Source: Taiwanofungus camphoratus
Lineage: Eukaryota; Basidiomycota; Agaricomycetes; Polyporales; Taiwanofungaceae
Reading direction: 5' to 3'
DNA length: 64,000 bases
NCBI GenBank assembly: GCA_003999685.1
Contig: CP021224.1
Coordinates: forward strand, 1,736,001-1,800,000
Shown: piece by piece, positions 34,369-40,541 of the stretch
Position numbering within the stretch: the first letter of the stretch is position 1
Layout: each line of letters starts with the position of its first letter
Position numbers and translations under genes: made by a program
Notes under the pieces: model-generated
What the model was told of the DNA's origin: nothing
Database searches by the model: none
The model's input: only the letters and a program-made list of their open reading frames with translations

Positions 34369-37300
34369 AGGGGCAGGGTGAGTCGACGCAACCGCTGCCC
34401 ATTTCAGTTTCACTGTCCCGTGTTGTACTAGTAGTTCGGAATGAAAGGGCCTTACACATTCCGATTACTGTGGGACGAAAAGACGTCGAAGCGTGCGCCT
34501 TCATCGATAGCGGCGCCTCTGGGATATTCATACATCCCAAATTTGTTAAAGAACACAATATCCGCACTGAAGCCCTACCTCGCCCAATGCCGGTGTTCAA
34601 TGTGGACGGGACGGCTAACAAGCAAGCTGTCATCACAAAGAGGGCCCTTCTTTCGTACAAAATAGGAGGAGAACCCCGATTCGTTAAAGCCTATGTGGCC
34701 AGCATAGGAAAGGAAGATATTATCTTCGGACATACCTGGCTCAAACTGGAAAACCCGGACATCGACTGGAAAACAGGACAGGTGGAGCTTAAACACCGCA
34801 TGACCCTGGAGGAATCTAGGGAATGGAAGAGAAACCTGTTGGAAACCAGAGCTAGACGACTGGAGATTAAGAGAATAGCGGCAGAATCTCTTTCCAGGGA
34901 AATCATTAAAGCCCGTCAACCCTCAGTCGAAGAAGTAGAGGACGAAGGAGATGGGGACGTCATGGACACCATGTCTCCAGTCTTACCAACCACGGAAACC
35001 TATCGTCAAACGACATCTCGAGACTCTCCAGTCTCAACCCCGGAAGAAAACTCGGTAAACGGTATCACACTCGAACAGGCCATGGAAACGATCGACGACG
35101 ATGAGCTGGTCGTAGCATTCATCGAAGGAGACGATCGAATCACAACATACGGACGAGATTTGCACCCCGCGTATCGAGACACCCCGCTTAAGGAAAAGGA
35201 ATACCCTCTCGATGGAGCGTATCGTCGCCTTGAAAATGGTCTCATCTGGCAGGTCAAACATGACATCGGTCGGCTCACTACATCTATGGAACTCGCTATT
35301 AAGGAACACGCCAAGAAAGAGGAGAAACAGGTCACGGAACTCATTCCTGAGTACCTCCATGATCTCCTTCCGGTGTTCGACAAGCAAGCGGCAGCCCGAC
35401 TCCCTAAGCACACGGAACACGACCACGAGATCAACCTGAAGGAAGATTTCAAGGAATTCAAGCAGTCCACTTATTCGCTCAACAGAGAGGAACGAGAGGA
35501 GCTGGATAAGTTCTTGGAAGAAAACCTCCAGAAAGGCTACATTCATCCGTCGAAATCACCATTGGCCAGTCCGTTCTTCTTTGTAGAAAAGAAAGATGGG
35601 GGATACTGACCTTGCCAGGATTATCGGGAACTCAACGAGGGAACTGTTAAGGATCGTTATCCACTCCCTCTCATATCGGAACTCTTGGAACGGTTAAATA
35701 AGGCGACCATCTTCACCAAGATGGATCTCAGGCAAGGGTACAATAATGTCCGGATCCGAGAAGGAGACGAATGGAAGGCGGCCTTTGGTGTTCCAGCGGC
35801 TGGAGAAGGACCTCCCTCGTTCTACGAACCCCTGGTAATGTTCTTCGGGATGTGCAACTCACCGGCAACATTCCAACGGATGATGAACACGGTCTTCGCG
35901 GACATGCTCAAGGAAGGATGGTTAGCAATCTATATGGATGACATCCTTATCTACTCGACGGACCCCGAGGAGCATAAGAAGTGAACACGGCGAGTTATCG
36001 AGCGACTTCGAGATAACGACCTATATCTCAAACCGGAGAAGTGCAAGTTCAATGTGCAAGAAGTCGAATTCTTAGGCATGATCATTAGACCCGGACAACT
36101 CGCCATGGACCCAGTCAAGGTAGCCGGCATTAAAGACTGGCCGATACCCAAGAACCTCAGAGAGGTTCGGTCATTCATCGGGTTTGGAAACTTTTACCGT
36201 CGGTTCATACATAGGTTCTCGCATCTGGCCCAGCCTCTGATTTCGCTTACACGAAAAGACGTCAAATGGCACTGGGACAACGAACAACAAGAGGCATTTG
36301 AGACACTAAAGAAAGCCTTCCTAGAACAACCAGTCCTATTGATGCCTGACCCGGAGAAACCCTTCGCATTGGAAACAGATGCATCAAAGTTTGCCACCGG
36401 CGCAGTCCTCAGGCAAAAAGACGACAACGGAGACTGGCATCCATGCGGTTATATCTCCCAGAGCATGACACCAGCGGAACGAAACTACGATGTTTACGAT
36501 CGGGAACTTATGGCGGTCATGAGGGGGCTCAATGAATGGAGTCACCTCCTCATCGGTAGCCCGCATCCAGTCATGATTTACAGCGATCACAAGAATCTGA
36601 CATACTGGAAAACGGCACGGAATCTGAATCAAAGGCAAGCACGATGGGCTCTTCGCCTATCTGAATTCGATTACAGGTTGGTTCATGTACCCGGCACACA
36701 AATGGTGCAAAGCGACGCACTCTCCCGACGCCCCGATCACGACGATGGCTCATCCGACAACCAGGATGTAACCGTCCTACCAGACAAAGTATGGGCAGCA
36801 GCAATCGACACCAGCCTAAGGACTTCTATCAGGAAGGCAGGTGTAAACGACTCGGTATATATGGAAGGCCTGAATAACACACAAAACGGCTCAGACGATC
36901 ATTGGACAGTTCAAGACGGAGAACTCCTCTATGATAATCGAGTATATATTCCCCTGGATGAGGATCTGCGACGGCAAACAGTCTCAAATTATCATGACCT
37001 TCCACACGCCGGTCACCCTGGAATTCAAAAGACTCTCGCGTCTATTCGACGAGACTACTGGTGGCCCGGAATGGCAGACTTCGTCGCCCGATATGTCCAC
37101 GGTTGTGGGACCTGTCAACAAATGAAGGCTAACACCCACCCGGACCATCCCACCCTCATCCCTATCTGAGCCGCCGCCCACGCTACACCGTTCAGCACGT
37201 TCTGTTGTGATTTCATCACGGATCTACCCCTTTCCAACGGCTACGATTTGATTTTGGTCGTAGTGGACCACGACCTTAGTAAGGGGGTAATTTTCATTCC

Positions 37301-38249
37301 ATGCAACAAAACTATTGACGCGCAAGGAACGGCGGAACTCCTTTACAACGAAGTCTACAAATGGTTCGGACTTCCAGACAAGGTGATCAGTGATCGCGGA
37401 CCGCAATTCGCATCAAAGGTGTTTCAAGAGCTTTGCCGCATGACTGGAGTGCAGTCCGCCATGAGCACGGCTTTCCACCCTCAGACGGACGGAGAAACGG
37501 AACGGGTAAATCAGGAGCTCGAAGTATACCTTCGATGTTTCACAAGCAACAATCCGGATAGGTGGTCTTCCTTACTCGGCATGGCGCAATTCGCTCACAA
37601 CTCCAGGGAACATTCGACGATCAAGGCGTCGCCGTTTAAAGTTATAATGGGCTTCGAACCACGAGGAATCCCCGTCGTACACAAGGGATCGGACACACCC
37701 GGTGCAGCTTATCGCCTGAAGAACCTCCAGAAGATAAGAGAACAAGCACACGCGGCGATGGAGCTAGCCCAGGCGGTATTGGCAAAATGGATCAAACCGC
37801 GAGGGAAAGGTTTTCGTAAAGGACAGCAGGTTTGGCTCGACTCTCGGAACTTAAAGCTGCCATACCCTTCCAGGAAGTTGGCACCCAAGAGAGAGGGCCC
37901 CTTCAAGATCATCGAAGCCCTAGGCCCGGTTTCATACAAGCTAAAACTCCCGAAGACATGGCGGATACATCCAGTTTTCCACGCCGCCCTTCTATCGCCA
38001 TATACGGAGACAGAGATCCATGGCCAGAACTACACGAGGCCACCCCCGGAACTTATCGAAGGCGAAGATAACTATGAAGTCGAAGCCATCATCGGACATC
38101 GGGAGAACTTACGGACAAAACGTCGCGAGTATAGGGTCAGGTGGAAAGGATACTCTTCGGCCGATGACTCATGGGAACCGGAAGCGAATTTAGCCGGTAC
38201 TGCGGAGGAGCTCCTAGGAGCATATAAGGGGAGAAAGAACCTGGGCTAA
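34224..38249 (+). pseudogene. pol region of element B1 (PR-RT-RH-IN-chromodomain)
   Basis: Domains in order: protease (FIDSGASGIFIHP, about 34500), RT (TKMDLRQGYNNVR; YMDDILIYS at about 35932), RNase H (ETDASKFATGAVL; YDRELMAV), integrase with H2C2 finger (HAGHPGIQKT...CGTCQQMK), DDE core (CDFITDLP, ISDRGPQFA, PQTDGETERVNQELE), GPF/Y-type module (EGPFKIIEALGPVSYKLKLP) and chromodomain (YRVRWKGYSSADDSWEPE, about 38070-38240). Not open throughout; about three breaks. The integrase part contains a copy of the 3' polypurine tract (see 37271-37291). Confidence 0.93.
37271..37291 (+). promoter_or_regulatory. Candidate central polypurine tract in the integrase gene of B1
   Basis: Twenty-one bases centred on CCTTAGTAAGGGGGTAA are identical to 40043-40063, the polypurine tract plus the first base of the 3' LTR. 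Here they encode the integrase strand DLSKGV. Lentiviruses and Ty1 also place a second plus-strand primer in the integrase gene. Function is inferred. Confidence 0.6.
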
Positions 38250-38292
38250 GACCAGTTCACTCCCCTCAGACGAACTACCATTCACCCGCAAC

Positions 38293-39678: not shown

Positions 39679-40049
39679 AAGGGATTGCTTGCCGGAGGCG
39701 GCTAGTTGCAACTCAGCGAGAAGTATTAACGCTGAGCCACATGCTAGCAGGGTACAGTGGTGAAACATCCACTACGGTGATGGTGAACAGTAGGGGTGCT
39801 GTTTGCTTGAGGCGGTAGGTTGCAAGCGGTGCTGGGTCCTTACCCGGCCGCCCACATGCCTACATTGCACGAGGCTTACACGATGTCGTGGGTCCTTACC
39901 CGGTCGATTGTTAGTCTCACCAGGTATGAGATGAAACACTCTCAAGGTTCGAGGTGAAACACCCTCATGGTACGTGGTGAAACACCCGCACGGCTGACGA
40001 ACATTTTATTTAACGGAAAATCAAGTAGGGTCGTTCGGAGATCGACCTT
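39679..40049 (+). other. 3' untranslated segment of B1 with GGTGAAACACCC repeats
   Basis: No frame. Four dispersed variants of GGTGAAACACCC (about 39760, 39930, 39950, 39978) and paired GGGTCCTTACCCGG segments (about 39834 and 39890). Each GGTGAAACACC unit can fold on itself as a small hairpin. It may be an RNA packaging or stability signal; no family recognised. Confidence 0.55.
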
Positions 40050-40062
40050 AGTAAGGGGGTAA
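40050..40062 (+). promoter_or_regulatory. Polypurine tract of B1
   Basis: AGTAAGGGGGTAA directly before the 3' LTR. Confidence 0.85.
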
Positions 40063-40541
40063 TGATACAATTTCTATTTCTTGTCATTACCACGGTCATT
40101 GCTTACACATGGACTATTACTGTACGGGCCCCGGATCGGCCCCGCTTACGCATAGGACTCTGACTCATATCCGGGCCGCTTACCACATTCCTCATCACTC
40201 ATACGTATTGCTAATACGCCCGGATCGTACCACTTTGCATTTTATCTATAGTCATACCACATTTCGGACCTCCTGCCCTAGAGTAGTTCTTGGTCCGTGC
40301 TTACGATACGTACTTGTATATATAGCATGTATTTAGCTTAGCTCAGACCTTAAGTCTGATCTTGTTACCATTATATTCGTGTCTTGTATCCTCTCGCTCA
40401 CATCTGAGTGATACTCGCTCGAGTCTACGGACTTCACAACACTCGGTCTATATATCGACCATAAGACCTCGCCACCTTCTATCGTGGTCAGGCCCTCACA
40501 TGTGAGGCAACATATAGGATCCGAGATACCAATTTGTATCA
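40063..40541 (+). repeat. 3' LTR of element B1
   Basis: 479 bp, TGATACAATTTC...TTTGTATCA, about 98% identical to the 5' LTR and followed by the TCAAG duplication. Confidence 0.96.

Follow-up and report, generated by a model that had tools for sequence, protein, structure and literature searches.

The integrase gene of element B1 contained an exact copy of the element's own 3′ polypurine tract, and nucleotide-level constraint on this integrase copy was well supported in three lineages of related elements. Judged from sequence, the integrase tract probably serves as a central polypurine tract, at which plus-strand DNA would be primed. B1 was located in a window of 64,000 nucleotides (the whole stretch of Taiwanofungus camphoratus DNA that was analysed), to which all coordinates refer. 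The main parts of the element were:

32408–32886, + strand: 5′ LTR of B1, paired with the 3′ LTR
36054–37169, + strand: part of pol with RNase H and H2C2, from a domain scan
37248–38249, + strand: part of the integrase ORF with catalytic core, Tf2-type SH3 domain and chromodomain
40063–40541, + strand: 3′ LTR of B1, beginning with TG at 40063; its partner starts at 32408

RNase H preceded integrase in B1, as judged from the order of the RNase H, H2C2, integrase core and SH3 domains, and the integrase C-terminus was a chromodomain (PF00385, E 4.5e-15, residues 276–328 of 333). From this domain order and the C-terminal chromodomain, B1 is a Ty3/gypsy chromovirus. The integrase catalytic core scored just below the Pfam cut-off, and a stop was present in the integrase reading frame upstream of the tract at 37271–37291. 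An additional ORF with a CCHC zinc knuckle (38293–39678, + strand, 461 aa) was situated between integrase and the 3′ LTR and had no clear likeness to the gag of B1 itself. Immediately downstream of B1 was a tandem array with a 34-bp unit (41095–41904); a similar array was observed, reversed, at the start of the window (about 6–654). Named relatives of the B1 protein among the best 120 of 2146 included Sparassis, Trametes and Moniliophthora, which we take to be Agaricomycetes and which point to a basidiomycete host.

The two tracts of B1 comprised the following features:

37271–37291, + strand: putative central polypurine tract within integrase, where it codes D-L-S-K-G-V-(I); an exact copy of 40043–40063
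37281–37291, + strand: core AAGGGGGTAAT, the run of seven purines and the next 4 nt
40043–40049, + strand: CGACCTT flank of the 3′ tract, common to the integrase copy
40050–40062, + strand: 3′ polypurine tract AGTAAGGGGGTAA, adjoining the 3′ LTR

The first-pass annotation had reported a 21-base identity in codons for DLSKGV, which was confirmed. The 21 nt CGACCTTAGTAAGGGGGTAAT were present at both 37271–37291 and 40043–40063, the second copy ending on the T that opens the 3′ LTR. The integrase copy thus matched the 3′ tract at every base of its unbroken purine run and in the 4 nt beyond the likely cut. With up to three mismatches, the 21-mer had no third site in the 64 kb and was found in none of 100 dinucleotide shuffles. 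GGGGGTA was present on the B1 coding strand only at the two tract sites. CCTT and AAGG formed a short inverted repeat on either side of the tract centre.

Both tracts were kept in the genomic copies of family B, here called S. A query of 201 bp spanning the tract yielded 40 scored copies from 133 candidates (88–100% identical), and all 40 loci were taken with about 3.7 kb of downstream DNA. The integrase 21-mer was exact in 29/40 copies and the core was kept in 39/40. With a 130-bp query, 38 of the 40 loci yielded a 3′ end, and the tract read AGTAAGGGGGTAR followed by TG in all 38; this similarity search is the fair figure, as the exact-match count used a pattern that itself contained the tract. 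The 3′ 21-mer was exact in 25/38 loci, and 18 of the 38 loci with a 3′ tract had both 21-mers exact. CGACCTT at the S 3′ ends was kept with small indels and one substitution, and one additional A or T was frequent before AGTAAGG. Exactly two GGGGGTART sites were found within 4.5 kb at 36/40 loci; L012 had three, and L013, L022 and L038 had one. Nucleotide drift with only the amino acids retained, which the first-pass annotation had named as evidence against its reading, was therefore not what family B displayed. Covariation of the integrase and 3′ tracts, also proposed there, was not visible by eye across the S copies.

Two further lineages, T and U, differed by 21–28% at the DNA level, yet had the core at the same codons. 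The T set consisted of 20 loci that matched B1 at 75–79% identity across 400 bp of integrase. The core was retained in 18/20 of these loci, which were initially found via the tract pattern and hence by a biased route. An independent query beginning 99 nt past the tract start yielded 40 scored copies from 168 candidates, and the tract was at the expected place in 40/40 (30 exact; the other 10 departed from the T pattern at one base). T integrase mostly coded D-L-T/M-K-G-V, with the usual tract CGACCTTA(C/T)(G/A)AAGGGGGTAAT. The T 3′ tract was AGTAGGGGGGTAA followed by TGATAC in 14 of 15 T-type ends and AGTAGAGGGG in the remaining one. The T integrase tract (e.g., ACGAAGGGGGTAAT) and the T 3′ tract (AGTAGGGGGGTAAT) differed at 3/10 positions, all upstream of the GGGGGTAAT that they had in common. 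Of the 21-nt match seen in B1, the T tracts retained between them just this part and some scattered positions. The distance from tract to LTR was only about 1.5 kb in T versus 2.2–2.8 kb in S. In lineage U (L082, L083 and L086), which was compared on the integrase side, the tract read AAGGGGGTAGTTTTC; these loci were 72–77% identical to S_L001 and two T copies. Five T-like loci (L042, L045, L051, L054 and L058) were T/S recombinants. They were T-type through the tract and turned S-type at a point within +253..+303 (four loci) or within +369..+383 (one locus). No sites diagnostic for S versus T were present between −660 and −180.

Codon use at the integrase tract was nearly invariant. In a peptide-level search, GGG-GTA was used at 115 of the 116 genome-wide places fitting the peptide pattern; the remaining one had another Gly codon, and GGG with another Val codon was found at none. 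Elsewhere in S integrase, GGG accounted for 10% of Gly codons (n = 1284), GTA for 30% of Val codons (n = 1359) and ATT for 26% of Ile codons (n = 869). Synonymous divergence (Nei-Gojobori type) between S (40 copies) and T (13 copies) was determined in windows of 12 codons; the interrupted L044 and L059 and the five recombinants were left out of T. The S-T divergence at the tract was 0.114, the lowest of 528 windows (mean 0.588), at a window position chosen after an earlier result on the region had been seen; 0/20000 draws from conserved-residue codons were as low. Within S, divergence was 0.092 at the tract versus 0.378, again with 0/20000 draws as low, and the lowest windows began at −17 to +4. 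The dip within T was weaker (0.071 versus 0.213; equalled or undercut by 346/20000 draws), and some windows elsewhere were lower still.

The dip recurred in comparisons with lineage U. In 7-codon windows, the tract ranked 6 of 362 in S-T, S-U and T-U, with 0.134, 0.135 and 0.150, respectively, versus overall values of 0.643, 0.696 and 0.744; because the U loci were chosen from the GGG-GTA list, the fairness of the S-U and T-U values depends on the genome-wide codon counts. The 12-codon window ranked 1, 4 and 6 of 357, with the lowest window beginning at −8, +4 and +4. The five lowest 7-codon windows began at +4 to +19 in the three pairs, reaching beyond the tract. Every one of the 53 S and T rows had the same GGG and GTA, and equally fixed were GTC, GTG, GAC and CAC before the tract and TTC, TGC, AAC and AAA after it. 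As these flanking codons were as fixed as GGG and GTA, the constrained block spans about 54 nt and overshoots the tract by about 14 nt on the 5′ side and about 20 nt on the 3′ side:

37257–37310, + strand: stretch where synonymous divergence was lowest, reaching from about −14 to about +39 relative to the start of the tract

The first-pass annotation had proposed examining synonymous positions of the integrase tract in family B, and these were strongly constrained. Its suggestion that the feature may be specific to family B did not hold, since the constraint extended to T and U.

Families without the tract served as a control. As the first-pass annotation had noted, families A, C and B2 did not preserve it: A and C coded K-G-I-V with other codons at this integrase site, and the presumed B2 (56712–60126) matched B1 only as far as B1 position 36810, before the tract. 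A B-type LTR (58928–59404, − strand) was inverted within the B2 pol remnant. In A, B, C and T alike, the 3′ tract ended in GGGGGTAR followed by TG. From families C and C2, 8 and 12 copies out of 40 listed were compared; they mostly coded K-G-I-V, and the two families had an overall divergence from each other of 0.633, similar to S-T. No dip was found at their homologous site, either between C and C2 (0.544, rank 53 of 205) or within C (0.549, rank 140 of 205). Within the young C2, where overall divergence was only 0.101, the site was low at 0.016 (rank 3 of 205). The between-lineage dip thus belongs to families carrying the tract, and the S-T trough together with the lack of a dip in this matched pair indicates that DNA or RNA was constrained, not protein alone. 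A possible internal purine tract, AAGAAGAAGGGGGTACAG, was located at a different place in family C pol (45682–45702, − strand), with GGG in 8/9 exact peptide-level sites genome-wide.

Protein constraint and shared ancestry alone, with chance, codon preference or inter-lineage recombination having held the codons of D-H-x-L-S/T-K-G-V-I in place, are already disfavoured and an improbable cause of the dip. The peptide was indeed widely conserved, with K in 119, G in 114, V in 100 and I in 97 of the best 120 of 2146 relatives (counted from the alignment, as a regular expression missed 82/120). Recombination between S and T does occur, and family C, too, retained part of the flanking codons (TGC and AAC, for example). 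Against this, codons of conserved residues elsewhere downstream had a synonymous divergence of 0.774 between S and T (159 codons), the homologous site in C and C2 lacked the dip, and the dip was present in all three lineage pairs. We consider it very improbable that the likeness arose by recent copying, in which the integrase segment overwrote the S 3′ end, or the reverse, by template switching and the inner copy has no current use. Such copying would fit the distribution of CGACCTT, which was present in most S and T integrase copies but beside the 3′ tract in S only. It leaves the synonymous constraint in T and U integrase unexplained, and T lacked the 21-nt identity; recent copying may nevertheless hold alongside a central polypurine tract.

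Constraint on the block as DNA or RNA for another cause, with the likeness to the 3′ tract partly coincidental, is unlikely but deserves more weight. A splice donor (G|GTAAT), an RNA signal for packaging or of a structural kind, or a site bound by a protein would suit a block that is wider than the purine tract and whose lowest 7-codon windows began at +10 to +16, extending past it. GTAAT in the integrase tract resembles a splice donor; T, however, seemingly lacks the 3′ ORF available for splicing in S, judging from its shorter LTR distance. Energies in a consensus-fold scan were lower close to the tract (z down to −2.53), but low variation alone may lower consensus-fold energy, and single-sequence folds of four sequences were ordinary (z 0.00, −0.97, 0.11 and 0.47). 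On these folds, with z between −0.97 and 0.47, RNA folding was rejected as the cause of the block. Moreover, another signal would have only a small chance of reproducing the purine run of the 3′ tract together with the 4 nt that follow.

A central polypurine tract is the likely explanation, and the simplest one for both the likeness and the constraint. The standard plus-strand primer is a purine-rich RNA resistant to RNase H. The integrase purine run in RNA would likewise resist RNase H; the cut would then fall after the purine run, with 4 nt of the match beyond it, and the freed primer would start plus-strand DNA. The element may benefit from a shorter time as single-stranded DNA or from a backup start. 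The second-tract reading of the first-pass annotation gains from the nucleotide conservation of both tracts in family B and loses from the non-identical T tracts and the constraint on flanking codons. A central polypurine tract leaves the full width of the block and the unlike T tracts unexplained, and the missing covariation in S, the equally fixed flanks and the weaker T-T dip also count against it. A search for a footprint of use, or for a deletion product joining the tracts, returned no site with 0–1 mismatches linking the DNA upstream in integrase to an LTR. Copies ending at the tract were also considered: 132 downstream-block sites were counted, and two seemingly unmatched ones among the first 100 of 132, L088 and L089, had ordinary upstream sequence.

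We regard as rather doubtful a broader proposal, in which central plus-strand priming would be a general and ancient device of Agaricomycete chromoviruses with D-H-x-L-S/T-K-G-V-I, K-G-V-I would be kept partly because its RNA serves as a primer, and central primer RNA, once freed, would also act at the 3′ tract. Such action would explain the integrase flank CGACCTT beside the S 3′ LTR. Relatives outside this genome were compared as protein, without codons (best 120 of 2146). The viral collection contained no pattern match, and a single 32% match in a bacterial MAG from the prokaryote collection was set aside.

In lentiviruses and Ty1, a second plus-strand start is placed in integrase, and the lentiviral central polypurine tract is a copy of the 3′ tract in the integrase gene. 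Ty1 belongs to another superfamily, with a gene order different from Ty3/gypsy. Lentiviruses are a different virus family, and they share with B1 the integrase copy of the 3′ tract; a central polypurine tract and a central termination sequence are mentioned for them in an excerpt of PMC3185511. Like the putative tract of B1, PPT2 of Ty1 (Ty1/copia, budding yeast) is a second plus-strand origin in pol besides the one at the 3′ LTR (Heyman 1995; Pochart 1993; as cited in excerpts of PMC2829016 and PMC5371799), but its use as a primer is experimental whereas that in B1 is inferred from sequence. Yeast Ty3 is of the same superfamily as B1, Ty3/gypsy; its polypurine tract is directly upstream of U3, and a central tract is described as not identified for Ty3 in an excerpt of a review (PMC5371799). 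Plant Sirevirus elements, like S, have more than one tract copy per element, but these cluster just upstream of the 3′ LTR while the second copy of B1 is in integrase (PMC2829016, in excerpt). The CCTT before the B1 tract resembles the TCTT found immediately upstream of fission-yeast polypurine tracts (PMC10085805, in excerpt). Among the literature matches listed, there was no recognisable report of a central polypurine tract in any Ty3/gypsy element or chromovirus.

Any genome bearing chromoviruses is open to the same codon-level analysis. Should the central reading of the integrase tract be correct, a second plus-strand start in integrase would be found in each of lentiviruses, Ty1 and fungal chromoviruses, and the purpose of such a start would become testable outside HIV.
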